The notes under the pieces are model-generated. The model worked only from the letters and a program-made list of their open reading frames with translations. It made no database searches and was not told where the DNA came from. 64,000 nt of DNA. It comes from Boswellia sacra. Its lineage: Eukaryota; Streptophyta; Magnoliopsida; Sapindales; Burseraceae. Made by a program: the position numbers and the translations under genes. Within the stretch, counting starts at the first letter, position 1. Every line of letters starts with the position of its first letter. Shown here one piece after another: positions 1 to 43,262 of the stretch. The DNA lies in assembly GCA_013180625.2 (NCBI GenBank), contig SNVD02008011.1, positions 1 through 64,000 of the forward strand. Reading direction: 5' to 3'.

Positions 1-1286
1 ATTGTCAATTACTTAGTTATGAAGAAGCTACCACATGACTTGACTCGAGCTCAAAGAGACAAGATCAAGAACATTGCCAAGTATTACATATGGGATGATC
101 CGTACTTATGAAGCATTGTTCTGACCAAGTGATAAGAAGGTGCGTTTCTGAATCTGAATTTAATTCAATTTTAACCTTCTGTCATTCTTATGCATGTGGA
201 GGTCACTTCGGACGAAAAAGAACGGCCCTCAAAGTTCTTGATTGTGGATTCTACTGGCCATCATTGTTCAAAGATGCATATCTCTTCTGCAAAGCTTGTG
301 ACCGTTGTCAAAGGACAGGTAATTTAAGTGCCAAAAATCAAATGCCACAAACTCCTATACTTATTGTCGAGATTTTTGATGTGTGGGGTATTGATTTCAT
401 GGGTCCTTTTCCTTCATCATTTGGTAATGTTTACATTATACTTGTTGTGGATTATGTTTCTAAATGGGTGGAAACAAAAGCTATGAGAACTAATGATTCT
501 AAAGTTGTTGTAGATTTTGTGAAATCTAATATTTTTGCGAGATTTGGAACACCAAGAGCCATGATTAGCCACAGAGGGACACACTTCTGCAACCGATCAT
601 TTGAAGCCTTGCTCAAGAAATACAACATCACTCACAAGGTGTCTACTGCATATCATCCATAAACTAGTGGTCAAGTTGAAGTTTCAAATCGAGAAGTCAA
701 GTCCATTCTCGAGAAGACAGTGAATCCGAATCGAAAAGATTGGAGCCTACGATTGAATGATGCACTTTGGGCATACCAGACTGCTTACAAGACACCTATT
801 GGTATGTCTCCGTACAGGTTAGTCTACGGTAAGCCATGCCACCTTCCAGTGGAGCTCGAAAATAAAGCATGGTGGGCAGTAAAGCTTTGTAACATGGAGA
901 TGGATGCTGCTGGAGAACAAAGGAAGCTTCAACTGCAAGAATTGAAAGAACTTAGAAATGATGCCTATGAGAATTCTAGAATTTACAAGGAGAGAACTAA
1001 GGCATTTCATGATAAAATGATCTCCAGGAAGAATTTTGAAGTGGGACAGAAAGTTTTTTTATTTCATTCTCGCCTCAAGTTATTTCCAGGTAAATTACGA
1101 TCTCGATGGGTTGGACCTTTTGTTATTACTAATGTCTTTCCCCATGGTGCAGTGGAAATCAAAAGCTTAAAAACGGATAAAGTATTCAAGGTGAATGGGC
1201 ACAGGTTGAAGCCTTATTATGAGAATTTAGTGATGCAGGACATCGATGAGGTACCTCTCTACGAGCCAACTTATCTTGATGGGTGA
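1..1286 (+). pseudogene. Ty3-gypsy integrase end of pol, broken
   Basis: Integrase inserts retrotransposon cDNA into host DNA. Bases 1-108 read open in one frame (ends ...YYIWDDPYL) and the homologous reading continues from 108 in another, so there is a frameshift near 106-110. From 108 the product shows the HHCC zinc-binding region (H26, H33, CDRC at 64-67), then GIDFMGP with the first catalytic Asp. The second catalytic Asp should be in a SDGGTHF-like motif but reads SHRGTHF, so it is lost. An in-frame TAA at 660-662 (CAA to TAA in YHPQTSGQ) interrupts the core. The reading resumes in frame to 1286 through [21 protein letters not shown] and a C-terminal [18 protein letters not shown] segment. 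A frameshift, a stop and a lost active-site residue make it non-functional. Confidence 0.9.
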
Positions 1287-1328
1287 GGACAGATAACGTC
1301 AGGCTGAGGACGTTAAACCAAGTGCTTA

Positions 1329-1344
1329 TTGGGAGGCAACCCAA
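1329..1344 (+). other. Conserved Athila/Tat post-pol motif
   Basis: TTGGGAGGCAACCCAA is a short stem-like motif directly after the pol reading frame. It recurs in Athila/Tat-lineage elements at the pol to 3' region boundary. Its function is unknown to me. It helps classify the element. Confidence 0.5.
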
Positions 1345-1600
1345 TGTTTTTGAAACATAAATAAAAAGAGACAAAGAAAAGAAGGTAGTAACAATCAGTT
1401 TTTGTGTTTCGAGGAGATTCCTCTCATGGGCCATTATAATTGATCAGGTTTTATCTCTCTTTGCCATCTGTCTCATTTGCTTTGTTGTTTGTTTTTGACT
1501 TTCGTTTGCTCTTGTGTTTTTATTTCTTTTCTGTGTCTCTATTTTCTTTTCTTTTCTTTTCTTGTGTTTAATTTGATTATTCCGTGCTTCGAGTTCAGTT

Positions 1601-1705
1601 ATGCAACAGCTTGAGGAAACATTCAAACGGGAGTTGAAGCCATTGTTCGAAGGTTTGAAACGTGCATATCTGGGAGAAGAACAAACTCAATCGCATTATC
1701 GGTAA
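1601..1705 (+). CDS. Small ORF (34 codons) before the zinc-finger ORF
   Basis: The ORF begins MQQLEETFKRELKPL and ends QSHYR. It is charged and probably helical, with no recognised family. It sits in a pyrimidine-rich stretch 24 bases upstream of the zinc-finger ORF at 1729. It may be an upstream ORF or the start of a split accessory gene, but it could equally be chance. Its non-repetitive composition next to low-complexity flanks is the only support. Confidence 0.25.
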   Translation: MQQLEETFKRELKPLFEGLKRAYLGEEQTQSHYR

Positions 1706-1728
1706 TATCTCTCCTTTTCTTCTCTTCA

Positions 1729-2359
1729 ATGGATGCTGATATCTTTCTATCGAACCTTCGTAAATATTTCCCTTCACTTCCTCAAAATGCTGTGTTTAAA
1801 ATTTATAAAGTACGGATGACTAGACTTTGGGCATTGATGCTCCTAAATGTGCCTGCTGATATCCGATTGCTTATCGAAGCCAAGGTGAGATTGTCCGGTG
1901 AGCCGGACATTAATCTCGCAAAATACATGCCTGGTCTAGGAAAGAGGTACTACGCCAAGAGGCGAAGAGCGAAAAGGTTACAAGTATGTTATAAATGTGC
2001 TAGATGGAATTGTAACCAGACTTGTCGTTCATAAGGTATTGCGTCCAGGAATAGAGAAGATAAACTTTCATTTATTAAGAATGGTTTGAGTAATGAGTCG
2101 CTGGATAATGTTTTGTTAACTCTCGAGTCACATTCTTGTGGACTTGTTCAGCGTGAAATTGCTTAATCTATGGACACAATTTCGTGATGAATTGCAATGT
2201 TATAGTCTAGGGAATCTGACTAAAAACGACCCTGTTTGCCAGTTTATAAGAAAACTGGATGGGAAGCAAATCCCCGACTCATAGAAGGCGTTTCAGCCCT
2301 TACTGGACGTAAAACCAGAGGAAGATGTGAGCCACAATCACAACTACTTGTATATTTGA
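1729..2359 (+). pseudogene. Accessory basic zinc-finger protein gene of the retroelement, broken
   Basis: The first open stretch (1729-2034) gives 101 codons: an N-terminal helical part, a basic cluster KRYYAKRRRAKR at residues 72-83, then Cys 87, 90, 95 and 99 in a CX2CX4CX3C arrangement, suggesting a small nucleic-acid-binding finger. After TAA at 2032-2034 the same frame stays open for 43 codons (ends LVQREIA). A shift of frame near 2160 then continues as LWTQFRDELQCYSLG and KNDPVCQFIRKLDGKQIP, with one more in-frame TAG at 2282, to TGA at 2357. The original protein was therefore probably about 200 residues. A basic stretch followed by a Cys cluster resembles the cysteine-rich nucleic-acid-binding proteins of carlaviruses, but Cys spacing differs and I regard that as unproven. 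It lies between pol and the LOG ORF. Confidence 0.55.
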
Positions 2360-2509
2360 ATGTGTGTTGTTGTCGTCGAATTTTTTTTCTTGTTTCGTTT
2401 GATCTGATTATCAATGTTGATTTTGTGTTGTTGTTGTTTGTTGATTTTGTTTGTTTTAATTTCAAGTTTTCTTTTTGACAAACCATATGACTACCCTATG
2501 GCATAAGTA

Positions 2510-2643
2510 CACGTGGGAGACAAGTGTGGAGGTTTTGTCAACCTCCGCCGAAAGTATATGTCCATTTTTCATGCTTCACGTGGGAGACAAGTGTGTAGGT
2601 TTTGTCAAACCCCGCCGAAAGCATATCTCATTTTTTCAAATCT
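2510..2643 (+). repeat. 67-bp tandem repeat, two copies, with G-boxes
   Basis: Two adjacent copies start at 2510 and 2577. Each begins CACGTGGGAGACAAGTGT, runs through GGTTTTGTCAA and a CCGCCGAAAG block, and ends in an AT-rich stretch. Each carries a CACGTG G-box. They lie 190-325 bp upstream of the LOG ORF, so they may form part of a promoter-like region; this is inference. Confidence 0.8.
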
Positions 2644-2720
2644 TGGGGCGATAAATATGCATCGAGCAACTCCCACCGAAATTATGTCCCCATGTGTCAA
2701 ATTTGAGAGTTTTACGTGTG

Positions 2721-2727
2721 TATATAT
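2721..2727 (+). promoter_or_regulatory. Possible TATA box upstream of the LOG ORF
   Basis: TATATAT occurs about 107 bp before the LOG ATG and about 80 bp after the G-box repeats. The spacing would suit a private promoter with a roughly 75-base leader. AT-rich context makes chance occurrence likely. Confidence 0.2.
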
Positions 2728-2833
2728 CCATTCTGCATATTTTCAAATGTCATTTTATAACCTGTCTTGCACTTGAATCGTATAATACCTAACGTGCATC
2801 ATTGTCTTACACAAGTTTAGAGCACTTTTAGAA

Positions 2834-3484
2834 ATGGAGAAAACACCAATTCGGCGATTCCAAAATATATGCGTATTTTGTGGATCGCGATTTGGTAAAG
2901 ATGGAGAGTTTACAACAGCAGCTCTTGATCTTGGTAGGACATTAGCTGCGAGGGGTATTCATTTGATTTATGGAAGGGGTAGTCTTGGGTTAATGGGGTG
3001 TGTGTCGACAGCTGCATCCTTGGGAGGGAGTAAAGTTCTCAGCATTATCCCTAAACCATTAGCTGTGCGAGATATCATAGGCAACACAATGGGGGAAGAG
3101 TTACAGGTCTCTAGCATGCATGAGCGTATTGCACATATGGTCATTAAATATGATGCATTTATAGCTTTGCCCGGTGGTTATGGTACATTAGAGGAGATAT
3201 TTCAAATCACCTCTTGGGCACAGCTAAACATCCATCGGAAACCCATTGGTTTGTTAAATGTCAATAATTTTTTTGATGGTTTGTTGTCTTTCCTTGATCA
3301 AGCAGTAGAAAAAAACTTCATCTCACAGTCAGCGAGGCAAATCCTGGTTACAGCTTCAACTGCAGGGGAGTTAATTGACAAATTGCAAGCATTCGTCTAT
3401 TCGCCTGATCCAACAATAGCTCGGATAGATTGGTTTACGGAGGGCAATAAAAGGCGTAAACTGGATTTAGCACTCCATCTGTAA
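2834..3484 (+). CDS. LOG: LOG-type cytokinin riboside 5'-monophosphate phosphoribohydrolase, intronless, inside a retroelement
   Basis: LOG enzymes release active cytokinin bases from their riboside monophosphates in the cytosol. The 216-residue ORF has CVFCGS (13-18), the phosphate-binding loop region YGRGSLGLMG (46-55), MHER with the family's catalytic Arg at 98, and PGGYGTLEE (113-121) with the catalytic Glu, then SWAQLNIHRKPIGLLNV. Length matches plant LOG proteins and wording is closest to the LOGL10-like subgroup. Two oddities: the usual GGGS loop reads GRGS, and the Lys usually following MHER is Ile. Plant LOG genes have several introns; this copy has none and no poly-A tail or direct repeats beside it, fitting capture of a spliced transcript by the retroelement. 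The ORF is fully open although pol and the zinc-finger gene around it are broken. Whether it is expressed or active cannot be told. Confidence 0.9.
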   Translation: MEKTPIRRFQNICVFCGSRFGKDGEFTTAALDLGRTLAARGIHLIYGRGSLGLMGCVSTAASLGGSKVLSIIPKPLAVRDIIGNTMGEELQVSSMHERIAHMVIKYDAFIALPGGYGTLEEIFQITSWAQLNIHRKPIGLLNVNNFFDGLLSFLDQAVEKNFISQSARQILVTASTAGELIDKLQAFVYSPDPTIARIDWFTEGNKRRKLDLALHL

Positions 3485-5473
3485 TCTTTATCTGCTGGTT
3501 TGCTTCACTGTTGTTTGCTTTCTTTTTATTGTGTTTATTTGAGATTTTTCATGTTATTTCTTTTGAGCTTTTTCAGGTTATTTCTTTCGTTCCAGGTAAT
3601 ATTTTCTAATCTTGTCTTTTAGAGTGGTGGCTTAAAAAGTTCAAGTTCTCTTGAAACGCATTCTGGATTTCTTTAATCCATAATGGCTGAATAAGGAGGC
3701 TAACTTCTAAATTTTTTAGACCCATTCTAACTGAATTGTTTGTGTTTGCTGGCTTGTTGGACTTTGTTATTTTATGAGTAAGTTTAGTTTTCTATAATTT
3801 AGGGTTGTTATGTGTTTTTGTCTTTATCAGTTTCGATTCGAAAAAAAAAATTGTGGAAAAACCTGAAAATGGCAGAATATAGGGTTTCTTTAACCCTTGA
3901 AACGCATTCTCTTTAAATAAATCTATAGTTTGTTTATTTCATGTTGTTTGAAGTGTCTTGTTTCTTGTTTTGTTCTTTCTAATAAAGGTATATAGGCTAG
4001 AAACCTTAAGTCTGCGGGCTACTGGTCCTAAGGATTGTTGAAATATACAATCTTGACTCAGGTGTAACAATGCCACATACCTCTTTTCTTGCATTTTGTG
4101 GGTCGATGATAAGATAGTGATTGAATTAAGAATAACTCTTGAAAAATGATAAATGATGCATGGATCTGTGTGCTTGAAATATTTATTGGTTTTCGCTTTG
4201 CCTTTGATTCCTTGCGCAACATTGAGCACTGAGCTAATATCACTGAGTTATTTGTTCACTTAGAGAAAGTTATGTAATTTAAATGTTTCTTCAGATTTCA
4301 ATGAATTCTAGAACTTGTTTGATGGTCACTCAAGGCGAAATCCTAGACTGTGCAACATTGGGGAAATGATTTAGGCCATCTTTGGACCGTTTGAGCCTTA
4401 ATAGCCAACCTTGACTGAAATTGATCCCTAGTTACCCCTTTGAGCCTCTGTAAGCCTTTTTCGTTGTTAACTCACTAAAAGATTTCCTAACCTCAAATGA
4501 ATTTTTTTTTCCAAACAGTTTATCCCTTTCCTATGAGCATGTAGATCATTCACGATCACATTTTGAGCTATGTTTGGGTTTTGGGAAGTTAGATGAGGTT
4601 GGGTTGTGTCATGAGCAATGCAAGTGAGTTCTATTGTGTTTGTAAAAAAAAAAAAAGAAAAAAAGAAAAAAGAAAAAAGCCAATCTGTACTTATTGTCCA
4701 CATACTTACACATTGGGGACAATGTGTTGTTTAAGTGTGGGGGAGGGGAAGTGTAATAAAAAGAAAAGAAAAAAAAGAAAAAAAAGAGAACAAAAGAAGA
4801 AGAATAAGAGATCTATACTATTAAGTGTTCTTAAAAAGAATGAAACAACAAAGTGTAGGAGTGTAGTTTTCTTTTGTTTTCTATAAAAAAAAAAAAAAGA
4901 TTGAGTGTTCTAAATAAGTTTGGGGGAGTAACTTGGTGAATTGAAATAAAGTTGTGTTATAGGGTTGAGCTCTACATAGTCTTGAATGATTTATGTGTTT
5001 GTGGGTGATTTGAGCCAAAATATTATCCTTTATCATACCTTCACCCAAGCCAAACGTTACAAGCTTAATAAAGTCCTACTTGATCCTTGGTGTTGTGCAT
5101 GTCTACATTAGTGGAGAGTGACTTGAAAAGCAAGCATATGGAGTTCATTTATACACACATCTTCAATATTAAATATGATTCATTTTTATGTATAAACTCA
5201 TCCGGGTTACAAGTGATTAGGTGAGAATGGCTCTACACACACGCACACTTGAGGAATTGAAGTGAAGCGAAACTAATCTTAGAGATAAAATTCTTAATCA
5301 AGTGCATTATTTTGAAGTTTTCCTTGGGTTATAATTATGTACAATCTTTGAGGCCTATTTGCAAGTTGAAGCATTTGTGTGTTTTAATTTTTCTACGATT
5401 CTGTTTCGGTTTAGTTTTGTTTCATATCGTTGTAATTGCTCGAGGACTAGCAAAGTCTAAGTGTGGGGGAATT
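3485..5473 (+). other. Non-coding post-pol region of the Athila/Tat element with polypurine-like blocks
   Basis: I see no credible gene. It holds pyrimidine-rich tracts, A-rich runs (4643-4680, 4756-4800, 4884-4900) and the conserved block CATTGGGGACAATG followed by AAGTGTGGGGGAGGGG (4711-4748). A second GTTTGGGGGAG lies near 4918, and the final polypurine tract GTGTGGGGGA ends three bases before the LTR. Segments near 4310-4480 and 5030-5250 match the Tat element at 34060-34240 and 34660-34860, so this is a conserved retroelement module and not random spacer. Confidence 0.7.
5459..5473 (+). promoter_or_regulatory. Polypurine tract (plus-strand primer) of the Athila/Tat element
   Basis: AAGTGTGGGGGAATT lies directly before the LTR start TGATAGG. 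A purine tract in this place primes plus-strand DNA synthesis in LTR retrotransposons. Confidence 0.7.
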
Positions 5474-6878
5474 TGATAGGTGTCTATTTATGTATTACTA
5501 TTATATCAATTCGTCCATGTTTCTTTGCTATATTCCGTGGTATTTTTATGTTTTTGTGTGTTTTGATGTTTGTAGGAGTTTTGGAGCAACTTGCACAAAA
5601 ATGGAGTAAAAACCTTCATTTTCACCTCTGCTAGTCAACCATCTTCTCGGATTTAATTGTATTGATATACAATGAACCCGATGACATATCATATACCGTT
5701 GAAAAGCTCTCGAAGTCTACTTTTTGGAGAAATTTACGGTTTATGAATCCATTCAGTGCACCGAAAGTTGTAATCAAAATAGTATGAGAAGTGTAGAAAT
5801 GTAATTCCACACATCACTGTAGCATGTATAATACGGGATACTGTAGCACGTTACTGTAGCAGAGTATTTAAACACATTTTAGGGTTTTATTTCATAATTT
5901 GAAGAGGGGAGAACGTGGTGGAGGCTTCAGCTCTAGAATTCTTTCATCTCTTGGAGTTCTTGAAGGGGAAAGAAAGCTTGGAAAGAGGAAGAACTACAAT
6001 CCAAAGAGAATTACATCAAATTTGCTAAGTTTTTCCCTTCCTTTTCATTTTCTGGAATGTCTCCATGTTGTATTGTATTTACCACGTTCTTAAACATGTG
6101 TAACTGAATCTGAATTGGTTGAGGGTGTTTCAAAGCCCCTGATATGGTTTTTGTAAGTTGATTGTGCAAGAAGTTGTTATCCAATTCTCTAATTGAAGTT
6201 GCTTGTATTTTCCCATGTCTAATGCTTATGATTGCTTGCTGTATTGTATTTGGGTGGCCAACTGAATATAATCTGGATATTGTCTATTGCTAGACTAGAA
6301 ATCTTGATCCGTACTTGTCTTGAATTTCTAATCATTAGTAGCAAAATGTGATCAGAGATTGCAATTGGAAAATACAACCTAGGTTAAATAATCCGAACCT
6401 GTGTGATTATTGCTTAGATCAACCTGTCTTTCTTTTCATAATGCTTCCATTGAATTAAACTCAGAGAGTTTATTCTAGGTTGTTTAATGGATAGAGATTA
6501 AATAAAGAGCTTGTTTTATTTAACAACAAAGTAAGGAAAGATTTGGGTAACAGAGCTTGTTGTTATCTACGGTTGATAACTTCAATGCTGTAATTGGATG
6601 ACAATTCTATGTTAATTCACAAATTCATATCTTGTGGTAGAGAAAGACCCTTAACCAAGTGTCTCTCATTGATTTTTCACTCCATTTTACTTTGTGTTTT
6701 GTTATTGTGCATTTACATTAATATTTCATGTAGTTAATCCATCAACAAAACCCCCCCATTTATTCTGTTGTTGCTTTTGAATAACAAATTCAATTAGAAT
6801 CAATCCTCGTGGGAACGATATCTACTTATCACTTTATTACTTGTGCGACTAGTATACTTGCTAGTTTTGAACGCATCA
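5474..6878 (+). repeat. 3' LTR of the Athila/Tat element
   Basis: The LTR begins TGATAGGTGTCTATTTATG just after the polypurine tract and ends GTTTTGAACGCATCA, giving TG...CA ends and 1405 bp. A TATA-like GTATTTAAAC near 5863 may be the promoter. The far end with CTTGTGCGACTAGTATACTTG is typical of plant gypsy LTR ends. No second copy is in the window, so the boundaries rest on motifs alone. Confidence 0.75.
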
Positions 6879-11458: not shown

Positions 11459-12215
11459 TCATGCCAATGTTCCTATTTTCCTCATTTTCAAGCTTAACAC
11501 CAAGATTCCTGAAACTTGAAAAGTGTCAAATTTTTCTTTAATAAAATCAACCCAAGTATATCTAGAAAAGTCATCCACACAAACAAATATGTATCTCTTA
11601 CTTGTAATGCTTTCAATTTGCATAAGACCCATAAGATCCATGTGAAGCAAATCAAGTATCTTGGATGTGTTAAGATATGGAATGGATTTGTGTGCACTTC
11701 TAATTTGTTTTCCCATTTGACATGGTCCACAAATTTCATTTACTTTGTCATCAAATTTAGGAACTTCTTTTACAGCACCTAACTTAGTCAATCTAATCAA
11801 GTCTTTGTAATTTAAGTGTCCTAATTTTTTATGCCATAATTCTAAATCCGAAATCTTAGCTTGAAATGCAATGTTCACCAAATAACAATTATTTGAAGAT
11901 CTCCTTCCTTCTAAAATGCATTTACCACAATTATCTAAGACCATACATTTATTTTGTGTGAAATTAACAACATACTTGTCATCACATATTTGACTAATAC
12001 TAATTAGATTAGCTTTCAAACCTTCAACCAGCAAGACATTTTTGAAATTGGGTAGGCCTTTGACATTCAAAGTGCCTTTGCCAATGATCATACTCTTTGT
12101 TACCTTAAGTGACATTTCCTTCCCTGCATGCTTCAAAATTTTTCAAAAACTGTTTATTTTCAGTCATATGCTTGGAATAGACACTGTCAAAATACCACAA
12201 ATCGTTAGAAGAATG
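11459..12215 (-). pseudogene. Copia protease and integrase N-terminal region, truncated
   Basis: At the upstream end the minus strand reads WYFDSVYSKHMTENK, which is the copia protease active-site region. The usual DSG reads DSV. A frameshift follows; then 12136-11459 is open with GKGTLNVKGLPNF, LWHKKLGHLNYKDL, the CGPCQMGKQ part of the HHCC finger and HMDLMGLMQ with the first integrase Asp, ending just after VDDFSRYTWVDFIK. The rest of the integrase is missing. A protease with an altered active site and a truncated integrase cannot support transposition. Confidence 0.85.
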
Positions 12216-12807: not shown

Positions 12808-13831
12808 CATTCAGACTGAATATGCCCATAACCTGAACATTCATAACACTAAATCTGTCCTTTCTTATCAGGTTGCTTCAATTTCTTCTTGTCATTCTCC
12901 TTGTTGAATTTCCTAAACTTGTCTTCATTTGAGTTTGATGGCTTTCCTTGATTCTTTATCCTGAAATTCTTTTTTATGAACTTGACATAATTTTTCGTTA
13001 GAAAAGCAATCTGTTTAGAATCAGTTTCATCAAGTTCATCATTACTTTCATCATTAGATTTTTCAGTTTTAACATTGAATGCAATGCTTTTTCCTTTTTG
13101 CTTCCTAGTACTCTGATTAATTTCAAAGTTTTCAAGAATGCCAATCAGTTCATCAACCCTCATCTCATTAGTGTTTTTAACTTCCTCACTGGCTGAAATT
13201 TTAGGTTGATATTTATCTGGAATAGATCTGATAATTTTGCTAACAATTTCTGCATCAGTGAAAGTTTTGCCTATGATACTGCAGAAATTGTTAGCAAAAT
13301 TATCAGATCTATTCCAGATAAATATCAACCTAAAATTTGTGATGTAACTCAAAACATGTATGCAAAATTTGTGATGTGACATATCTTAGAGTAAAACTCA
13401 AAAATTGACTCATCCTCATGCATCATCAAATTTTAAAATTAAGAATCCAGTATCATCAATTTAGATCTGTTAACAAATGCAGTACCTTCATGTTTTACCT
13501 CAAGAATGTCCCAAGCTTCTTTGGCCACTTTGCACCTTGAAATCTGTCCAAAATTATTTAAATCCACAACAGCAAAAATTGCATTAAGAGCCTTTGAGTT
13601 CTAACTTGAACGTCGGTATTCTTCATCAGTCCATTCCTCCTCAGGTTTGGGTTTAGCATCACCAAAAGCATTCAACTTTGTTGGCGATGTCCATCCTTTA
13701 AGCACACTGGTCCATGCCATGTCATCAAGAGATTTGATATACATCATCATTCTTACCTTCCAATATGGATAATTACCATCATCAAGAATAGGTGGTTGTG
13801 TTCTGGATCCTCTATTGCGAATAAACTCCAT
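12808..13831 (-). pseudogene. Copia gag with CCHC zinc knuckle, rearranged
   Basis: Gag forms the particle that packages element RNA. The start at 13831 gives MEFIRNRGSRTQPPILDDGN, then YPYWKVRMMMYIKSLDDMAW, the usual copia gag N-terminus. Middle parts read AEIVSKIIRSIPDKYQPK and RVDELIGILENFEIN. The CCHC knuckle CYECSGYGHIQSEC lies at 12849-12808. A stop separates the knuckle from the preceding open stretch. A 59-bp inverted duplication (13196-13338) replaces normal gag sequence with its own reverse complement, which destroys the protein. Confidence 0.8.
13196..13338. repeat. Perfect 59-bp inverted repeat with 25-nt loop
   Basis: Left arm 13196-13254 (starts AAATTTTAGGTTGATATTTA, ends CAATTTCTGCA) is exactly repeated in reverse complement at 13280-13338. 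It lies within copia gag, and one arm is the real gag sequence. A template-switch or fold-back repair event explains it. Confidence 0.95.
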
Positions 13832-41228: not shown

Positions 41229-42695
41229 AAGGGATGGCAAAACCAGAGGCCGGGGCCTTAGCCTTCAATTGCATACCTTTATCCTAGGAAATTCCTCAAA
41301 AAAATTTTTTGCCTGGGGTCGGGGCCGAGTTTCTAATAACCCGTGATTAAAACCTTGGTTGTTTATTTTTTTTTTAATTCTGATTCTTTTTTTGTCCTTT
41401 TTATATATATGTTGCATGCATACTTAACTACAAAGTGGGCTGTAGCCCAACGGTGGCCTAGCATGCTCACTGCCTTATGGTTTAGAATAAGGAATGGGTT
41501 TTAATAGCTTATATTACATTTCTTTAAAACTCATTTAATTTATTTAGAAAGGGTGGTTTCTAAAGCTTTCTATATTGCATCTTTATTGCAAAGTGGGTTG
41601 TACCAGTAGTGTCTTGCCTTGCTTAAGCCTTATGGTTTACAATGGGGTATGGGTTCGAATTTCTTCTATTGCAATTTTTTTAAAACTCATTTAATTTATT
41701 TTAAAAGGGTGATTTTTGGACTTTACTGTGGTTGGTTGCACTTGCAATGCAGCTTGCTGCCTCTTTTGGTTTATATTAGGTATTTATATAATAAAAAGTC
41801 CTCTTTTGGTTTTTTTATTAATTTGTGTATTCTAATTTCTAAATTCTAATGTATACTTGCTATATTTATTTTGACAAATATTATATTGTAATTTTGTTTT
41901 CAACTTTTTGTTTTTAAAACTCATTTAATTTATTTAGAAAGGGTGGTTTCTAAAGCTTTCTATAGTGCATCTTTTATTGCAAAGTGGGTTGTACCAGCAG
42001 TGTCTTGCCTTGCTTAAGCCTTATGGTTTACAATGGGGTATGGGTTCGAATCTCTTCTATTGCAATTTTTTTAAAACTCATTTAATTTATTTTACAAGGC
42101 TGATTTTTGGACTTTACCGTGGCTGGTTGCACTTGCAGTGCAGCTTGCTGCCTCTTTTGGTTTATATTAGGTATTTATATAATAAAAAGTCCTTTTTTGG
42201 TTTTTTTATTAATTTGTGTATTCTAATTTCTAAATTCTAATGTATACTTGCTATATTTATTTTGACAAATATTATATTGTAATTTTGTTTTTAACTTTTT
42301 GTTTTTAATTTGAAATTCAAAATCTAACACAAAAATTCTAATGCTAGAAATGAGGGAAAACCAATTTAGAACTGAGGTATAAAAATTATACACATTCCCA
42401 ATTTTGGTGGGCTGGATTGGGCCTGTCTTTGTGCATGAGTTGTTAGGCTTTTATGAGTTATTTTAGTAAAATGGTTTATGGGCTTAAGTAGTTATATTGA
42501 AGAATTGAAAATTGATGGATTAAATTGATGGAGTTTCTAATTTTAATTGCATGCCCTGGGTTCAATTTCGGGTCCTCAGCCCAAGCACCTCTACCCCCTC
42601 TACCCCGGCCTCAGCCAATTACCCTGGTTTTTTGTGCAATTAATGTCTAGGTTTTTTGGGTCCCTAACCCCGGCCGGGTTGTTTTGCCATTCCTA
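41229..42695. mobile_element. Non-autonomous hAT element in CXE A
   Basis: Ends AAGGGATGGCAAAAC and GTTTTGCCATTCCTA are inverted repeats. The 8-base target copies GCTCGAAC (41221-41228 and 42696-42703) are identical, diagnostic of hAT. Subterminal GGCCGGGGCC / CCCCGGCCGGG words lie at both ends. The interior consists largely of a 390-bp tandem duplication and has no transposase. Confidence 0.93.
41531..42300. repeat. 390-bp tandem duplication inside the hAT element
   Basis: 41531-41920 and 41921-42300 match nearly base for base (landmarks TCATTTAATTTATTTAGAAA and GGTTTACAATGGGGTATGGG). It explains two similar 76- and 91-codon open frames that I do not regard as genes. Confidence 0.95.
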
Positions 42696-43262
42696 GCTCG
42701 AACAGCTACATGATGCACAAAATTGCCACCCACGCTATCTCCAACGAGAAAACAATGGTTGAGATTTGCACAAGCAGGGAAGCTTTCACTGTTTATGCCT
42801 TCAATGAACTTAAGCACATCTACACCATCTTCATAGTGACACGGATATCGGTGCTTCGGGAAGAGATGGTAGCTAACAGAGACAATAACGATGTTAAGTT
42901 CCTTGGCCAACTTTCTGCAACAATCATCTACGGATTTTGAATTGGCAACCATGGAAATAAATCCTCCACCATGGAAGTAAACGACGACTGGCATGCTGCC
43001 ATCATCGCCACTGGAGGTGGCGGGCGTGGGCATGTAGATGCGGAGCCAAAGGTTGCAAGAGGAGTCAACTATGATATCATTGGTTGTAACACCATTGATG
43101 GGTTTATTTGAAGGAGAAGTTTTGAAGTCAAAGCGCTTTAAGGAAACAACAATTGATGGTGAAGTTGAGGCGGCAAGAAATGTCCACGACAAAGGAGATA
43201 GCGGACATGAAGAGCCGAGTCCTCCATGGAAGGCGTGGTGAAGTTACAGGCTTCTGATACAT

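Follow-up and report, generated by a model that had tools for sequence, protein, structure and literature searches.

The first 6878 bases of the 64,000-nucleotide stretch of Boswellia sacra DNA analysed here (the window) are the 3' part of a gypsy-type long terminal repeat (LTR) retrotransposon that opens within pol, closes at its 3' LTR and carries in between an intronless open reading frame (ORF) of the LOG family, the family of cytokinin-activating enzymes. We found that LOG belongs to this element as an old, selected gene of its lineage, that the encoded protein has kept the fold and the catalytic residues of LOG enzymes and exchanged two residues of the nucleotide pocket, and that it ends in a basic stretch followed by an EAR-type motif. 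Our preferred reading, to which we assign a probability of roughly 55%, is that LOG forms a two-gene accessory module with a neighbouring virus-type gene and became a nuclear, EAR-tailed nucleotide-binding protein. An earlier, sequence-only reading of this DNA had described an LTR element with an intronless LOG ORF flanked by broken pol on one side and the 3' LTR on the other, and our analysis confirms this arrangement:

1..1286, + strand: 3' end of pol with the integrase zinc-binding and core domains, broken (profile match, sibling comparison by eye)
1729..2284, + strand: accessory gene 1, carlavirus-type nucleic-acid-binding and cysteine-rich, broken (profiles; end set by eye from the conserved C-terminus)
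2510..2643, + strand: two 67-bp tandem units, each starting with CACGTG (G-box core), 5' of LOG
2834..3484, + strand: accessory gene 2, the intronless LOG-family ORF, 216 codons (PF03641, structure relative, AlphaFold model)
3125..3205, + strand: LOG active-site stretch (alignment; residue roles from the accessible part of PMC4979012)
3449..3481, + strand: LOG C-terminal tail KRRKLDLALHL (basic stretch 3449-3460, LxLxL EAR-type motif 3467-3481)
5461..5473, + strand: polypurine tract GTGTGGGGGAATT adjoining the LTR
5474..6878, + strand: 3' LTR, TG...CA, 1405 bp (begins TGATAGG, ends GCATCA, after the purine-rich tract)

Nucleotide pocket and C-terminal tail of the element LOG

The LOG ORF (2834-3484) encodes 216 amino acids without stop or frameshift, matches PF03641 with an E-value of 1.2e-36 and has Arabidopsis At2g37210 as its best solved relative (E 5e-63). 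Its AlphaFold model (pLDDT 87.2, falling to means of 51 and 54 over the final two blocks, a low-confidence C-terminal end) superimposes on the At2g37210 structure 2a33 with a TM-score of 0.96, normalised by target length, and an rmsd of 0.8. Profile, model and alignment thus agree on the fold and the PGGxGTxxE motif of a type I LOG. Using residue roles from the accessible parts of the CgLOG papers PMC4979012 and PMC5379747, and a numbering that equals that of CgLOG minus one, we observed that the window protein keeps the catalytic Arg98 and Glu121 together with PGGxGTxxE (motif codons 3170-3196). Met95, His96 and Trp128 of the pocket are retained, the lysine is replaced by Ile99 (3128-3130) and the glutamate by Gln124 (3203-3205), leaving the adenine/prenyl set Met-His-Lys-Glu-Trp incomplete.

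The same replacements recur in database proteins of the element type, which include named relatives from Xanthoceras, Melia, Diplodiscus, Reevesia, Pterospermum, Populus and Rehmannia and are known here as proteins alone, without DNA context. We compared 116 of 120 such proteins with 109 of 120 plant cellular LOGs, the rest being left out by length. Arg98 occurs in 110 of the 116, and Glu121 and Thr118 in 114 each. Lys99 is found in 10, with Leu, Ile or Met at this position in 104, and Glu124 in 9, with His or Gln in 102. The two pocket residues covary, both being kept in nine proteins, neither in 106 and the lysine alone in one, and both are invariant in the 109 cellular LOGs, AtLOG8 and two bacterial LOGs. 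Replacement of Lys99 and Glu124 with retention of Arg98 and Glu121 indicates that the pocket was specifically altered rather than decaying, and a base site that is conserved in its rebuilt form makes an altered substrate a candidate property of the element LOG. According to the accessible parts of the two papers, Lys156Ala in CgLOGII lost all activity on adenosine monophosphate (AMP; PMC5379747), and alanine at the AMP-site residues of CgLOG, Lys100 being listed among them, caused near-total loss of activity (PMC4979012). The sequence-only description of the product as a hormone-activating enzyme is thereby weakened, although the catalytic Arg and Glu are retained; as the window protein lacks the full pocket set of type I LOGs, we file it as a LOG-family protein rather than as a demonstrated LOG enzyme.

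The tail is a second derived feature. The motif LxLxL, the defining EAR consensus beside the alternative DLNxxP (PMC6283911 and PMC9956375, accessible parts) and most often C-terminal in EAR proteins (PMC9956375, likewise), ends the window protein as LDLALHL. It stands at the C-terminus of 100 of the 120 element-type proteins and of none of the 120 cellular LOGs, six of which contain it elsewhere. When 116 element-type proteins, 31 sibling copies and the window protein were clustered, C-terminal LxLxL was found in 49 of 56 clusters at 90% identity, 28 of 34 at 80% and 15 of 18 at 70%, with a basic pair just ahead of it in 46, 25 and 13 clusters, respectively. Across the 28 clusters, in which the leucines are fixed by the choice of the set, the six positions ahead of the leucines are mostly K-K-R-K-L-D (0.7-1.7 bits), and the linker ahead of these is variable (2.1-3.3 bits). 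Eight of the nine canonical-pocket proteins lack LxLxL; because the ninth, P0046, combines both features, it suggests that the tail was gained before the pocket residues were lost, a single sequence being thin evidence for this order.

In the reading that we prefer, the LOG protein would combine the retained fold, phosphate/ribose site and catalytic Arg and Glu with a rebuilt base pocket and the added basic and LxLxL tail, and would act in the host nucleus. There, the tail would recruit TOPLESS-type corepressors, the LOG domain would bind, and perhaps hydrolyse, some nucleotide that is not one of the usual cytokinin precursors, and host gene expression would shift in the element's favour.

Several points weigh against this reading. 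Between LOG types, the base-binding residues are described as varying somewhat, and CgLOGII stays active on AMP with alanine at three of its prenyl-site residues (both from PMC5379747). The mutant evidence covers the lysine, and no test of the replaced glutamate was found in the accessible parts of PMC4979012 and PMC5379747. The derived features do not extend to the whole lineage, since its basal members (Xanthoceras, P0025/29/31) have a canonical pocket without LxLxL. LxLxL is a short motif that may serve another purpose, the tail codons 189-216 give a weak selection signal (omega 0.21-0.33, 2dlnL 3.8-7.5), and the cellular control set is LOG1/LOG3-like, the AtLOG8 chain used having no C-terminus. 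The clade that the element-type LOGs form in the tree described below has moderate support and could be produced by long-branch attraction, and the element setting of the relatives from other plants rests on accessory-gene linkage in few cases. Finally, picking sibling loci by LOG score favours intact copies and makes the presence of LOG in them true by selection.

Some of these points also speak for the view of the sequence-only reading that the element LOG is still cytokinin-activating; it would then free cytokinin, keep cells dividing and thereby favour transposition. Besides the canonical pocket of the basal members and the differences in base-site residues among active LOG types, this view can draw on the LOG fold, Arg98/Glu121 and PGGxGTxxE being kept in nearly all relatives, and on the strength of the purifying selection acting on the domain (in the single pair tested, omega is 0.09 over codons 54-184). 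We nevertheless consider it unlikely, given the joint replacement of Lys99 and Glu124 in 106 of the 116 relatives and the activity lost by Lys156Ala in CgLOGII and, almost completely, by the AMP-site alanine mutants of CgLOG. In addition, the window copy has a substitution at Gly48 in the glycine-rich stretch, a position held by glycine in all 112 cellular LOGs compared and in 114 of the 116 of the element type (same length filter as for the pocket; on the genome side, a full LOG from 31 of the 40 sibling loci). Such a change is expected for a decaying copy, and the LOG that had been called intact is so in its open frame and not at this near-invariant residue.

On a further account, which strikes us as quite improbable, the protein works on the element's own supply of nucleotides, or on its particles, as a nucleotide phosphoribohydrolase with a novel specificity, and the tail is no more than a nuclear import signal or dimer contact. 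The kept phosphate/ribose residues and catalytic pair would suit this account, as would the consistently remodelled base pocket and the basic stretch ahead of the leucines, whereas it would leave unexplained why LxLxL closes the protein in 28 of the 34 clusters at 80% identity.

LOG as a gene of the element lineage

Searching all 638.6 Mb of the genome with PF03641 yielded 10198 first-look candidates, and all 150 that were scored match the full profile without stops; of 3852 candidates from a DNA search, the 40 scored, including the window copy, are all at least 97% identical. We took 20 sibling stretches of 8.4 kb each, mostly on longer contigs, around LOG matches from the 150. Accessory gene 1 lies upstream of LOG, in the same order, in all 20, an LTR was detected downstream of LOG in 16, and integrase is present in seven, partially in some. 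The loci fall into two families, with LOG 91.9-96.0% identical to the window LOG in the 18 loci of family A and about 70.7% identical in the two of family B (L011 and L017). LOG is open over at least 210 amino acids in 15 of the 20 loci and accessory gene 1 over at least 180 in eight, a comparison that favours LOG because the loci were picked by it. The check that the sequence-only reading had proposed, for LOG at the same place in several elements, thus came out positive.

Selection was estimated by pairwise maximum-likelihood codon models, between families unless stated otherwise. For LOG, omega is 0.16-0.19 (2dlnL against neutrality 71-89) at a dS of 1.18-1.33. Because the loci had been picked by a profile score over codons 54-184, we repeated the estimate on the remaining 85 codons and obtained 0.30 and 0.32 (2dlnL 13.9 and 12.6). 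The neighbouring genes are also constrained, with an omega of 0.13-0.14 for accessory gene 1 and of 0.04 for the N part of the integrase core, the saturated estimate for the integrase C part (omega 0, t 3005) not being counted; the window LOG against three relatives of its own family gave 0.19-0.39. The question of whether LOG survives by selection, which had been left undecided, is therefore answered in favour of purifying selection, and neutral evolution of the sibling copies, named in advance as an outcome that would speak against a lineage gene, is excluded.

These estimates, together with conservation in relatives of several plant genera, contradict the idea that LOG was captured once and carried since as functionless cargo. 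Decay does occur among the copies: of 41 LOG copies compared, 29 are without indel or stop (one of them without ATG) and 12 are damaged, among the seven nearest siblings of the window LOG four are without indel or stop and three damaged, and the window copy itself is decaying. We regard the cargo idea as very improbable. That an independent LOG retrogene, or any other one-off capture, entered a single element by chance, for which one could cite the intronless ORF in its own frame and a 10-base A run about 360 bases past the stop, is contradicted by the same neighbours at 20 sibling loci of two families and can practically be dismissed. No flanking repeats of at least 40 bases were found around LOG, short target duplications not being searched.

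To place the element LOGs among cellular ones, a FastTree phylogeny was built on the LOG body without the tail, with 25 randomly picked cellular proteins and identical bodies collapsed (116 element-type proteins to 114, 32 genome sequences to 29). The 114 database proteins and 29 genome sequences form one clade (support 0.895), AtLOG8 and the 25 cellular LOGs are set apart (0.988), and the bacterial LOGs lie outside. Because the LOGs of the element type, those from other plants included, group together and apart from the cellular LOGs in this tree, the capture is old, unless long-branch attraction is at work; the clade and the divergence between families speak against the recent acquisition that had been considered.

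Searches for cellular host LOGs with the family profile and the full-length protein were dominated by element copies. With a query of 64 residues we obtained three cellular-type LOG exon matches of 82-84% identity among the 150 scored, one with a stop, which span residues 8-62 of the query, and element copies cover nearly all of it. This partial coverage is in line with intron loss and, with the absence of introns from the ORF, agrees with the earlier proposal that a spliced host mRNA was captured, the capture step itself staying at the level of inference. We suppose that a processed LOG message would have been taken up by an Athila-type lineage in the distant past. Since then, it would have been maintained next to the gene for the carlavirus-type protein, the two forming the accessory genes that separate pol from the 3' LTR. 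The Populus proteins P0037, P0049 and P0103, named 'probable ... LOGL10' in public databases, have the altered pocket and the EAR tail and may be element copies annotated as genes.

The partner gene, pol-less copies and the rest of the window

In the window, accessory gene 1 is broken after codon 101 (ORF 1729-2034), bearing out the earlier observation of a damaged neighbour, and the remaining stump matches PF05515 (E 2e-5). An open sibling version of 184 amino acids matches both PF05515 (E 1.7e-10) and PF01623 (E 3e-5) over the cut-offs, open versions scoring 41.7 and 35.7 bits against 23 for PF05515 and 24.3 and 25.8 against 20.9 for PF01623. By eye, a zinc-finger-like Cys pattern comes after a basic stretch in the protein. 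A fold search with its low-confidence model (pLDDT 65) gave no E-value below 0.001 (best 0.073); ranks 1-5 are small plant-virus proteins, four of them named nucleic-acid-binding or silencing suppressor and none significant, from viruses that we take to be flexiviruses. Membership in Viral_NABP/Carla_C4 rests on the profiles, since the fold match is not significant. A database search returned 151 relatives, with Xanthoceras, Populus, Rhamnella, Gossypium and Citrus among the 120 listed. Linkage to LOG is seen in Rhamnella P0314, which carries PF01623 and PF03641, and in Gossypium P0355, which by eye ends in a LOG-like remnant; P0241 (accessory gene 1) and P0005 (LOG) are each assigned to an 8723-bp ENA contig, which is presumably one and the same. 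Viral proteins of the accessory gene 1 type are reported to be silencing suppressors, and one of them to act as a transcription factor that induces hyperplasia (PMC12172455). In the reading that we prefer, accessory protein 1 would bind nucleic acid and may blunt RNA silencing.

In 12 of the 18 family-A loci, the region from reverse transcriptase through RNase H to integrase is lost and both accessory genes are kept. The gag-protease region of these loci reaches the start of the reverse transcriptase, where sequence from beyond integrase takes over. A search with the joining sequence found an identical deletion junction in seven of the 12, five not matching the pattern, and the common junction indicates that one deleted ancestor was probably amplified. 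Integrase is also absent from the 8.4-kb stretch of the family-B locus L011. One locus, L020, combines a 576-amino-acid frame, open to the edge of the stretch, with a 184-amino-acid accessory protein and a 216-amino-acid LOG; we read this frame as gag-protease, the protease scoring 21.3 bits, below the Pfam cut-off of 24.3, and gag being recognised by eye. Retention of both accessory genes despite the loss of pol fits a role in cis or on the host-facing side of the cycle. More tentatively, the two genes could form a virus-like host-manipulation cassette in plants of several families, a silencing suppressor with a nuclear, corepressor-docking LOG nucleotide sensor that spreads with gag after pol loss; we see this wider proposal as possible rather than probable.

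Between two and four copies of CACGTG lie a few hundred bases 5' of LOG in 17 of 18 family-A loci and none in the two family-B loci, and the tandem units are a possible internal promoter for LOG. The sibling L018 also has tandem 67-bp units, each starting with CACGTG (2888-3146). RNA structure predictions in three stretches of the 67-bp array gave z-scores of -0.19, -3.35 and -0.65, and we claim no structure for it.

Base 1 of the window is the end of the contig, so that the 5' LTR of the element is out of view, and the reverse transcriptase and RNase H fall beyond the contig end. The integrase H2C2 and rve domains lie within 108-662 (Pfam profile search) and are gypsy-type, not Athila-specific. 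The TG...CA LTR with its adjacent polypurine tract is a feature of the Ty3/gypsy Athila class, and we assume the Athila/Tat label of the element from sequence features. The coordinates of the LTR agree with those given in the sequence-only reading. All three lesions earlier ascribed to the integrase were seen by eye against the siblings L024 and L017: a frame change near 105-110, a TAA at 660-662 where L024 reads through, and replacement of the second catalytic Asp (ISHRGTH in the window, ISDRGTH in L024). The approximately 2 kb between LOG and the polypurine tract hold short ORFs, none longer than 100 amino acids. A guessed reading frame 3' of the LTR contains stops and was dropped.

Elsewhere in the window, a gag_pre-integrs domain at 11462-12136 on the minus strand (E 6e-13) presumably belongs to a Ty1/copia-type fragment. 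At 13196-13338, an inverted repeat with 59-nt arms, 100% complementary and spaced by 25 nt, sits inside a 177-amino-acid minus-strand ORF without Pfam match, and a carboxylesterase-like piece of a host gene lies at 42650-43192 on the minus strand (Abhydrolase_3, E 8e-30).

Comparison with known systems

A LOG-family domain inside gypsy-type LTR retrotransposons is already known. PMC9289625 reports a YgdH/LOG domain in Ty3/gypsy consensuses of two Citrus species, and of Populus with a looser filter, and points to Steinbauerova et al. 2011 as having reported it before; the accessible part of this account makes no mention of pocket, tail, virus-type partner, selection or pol-less copies. In the literature on LOG, carlavirus-type proteins or EAR motifs with retrotransposons, seen mostly as titles and beginnings of abstracts, we did not find a description of the altered pocket, of the tail or of the partner gene. 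The pocket changes, the tail, the virus-type partner and the pol-less subfamily are additional here, and the EAR-like tail, the identity of the neighbour and the amplified pol-less subfamily also go beyond the sequence-only reading. On a practical matter, the Populus LOGL10 entries serve as a warning for annotation, as relatives with altered pocket and tail have been named LOG genes.

The element LOG shares the fold, the catalytic Arg/Glu and PGGxGTxxE with plant type-I LOGs (AtLOG3, AtLOG8, OsLOG) and differs from them in the replaced pocket Lys and Glu, the basic and LxLxL tail and the lack of introns. Accessory gene 1 resembles the cysteine-rich proteins of carlaviruses and flexiviruses in PF05515, PF01623 and the basic stretch with Cys pattern, whereas it is encoded by an LTR retrotransposon, has a longer conserved C-terminus and gives no significant fold match. 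Non-autonomous LTR elements of the TR-GAG type have likewise lost pol, kept the gag-protease region and been amplified; in contrast to them, the pol-less subfamily has also kept two accessory genes. Pathogen EAR effectors that bind TOPLESS, such as HaRxL21 and Jsi1, also place an EAR-type motif in the protein of a parasite, whereas here the motif, known from sequence, follows a LOG domain and the parasite is a retrotransposon. If our preferred reading is true, a hormone enzyme would have been remade inside a mobile element, and plant retrotransposons would possess a concrete accessory module comparable to those of viruses.

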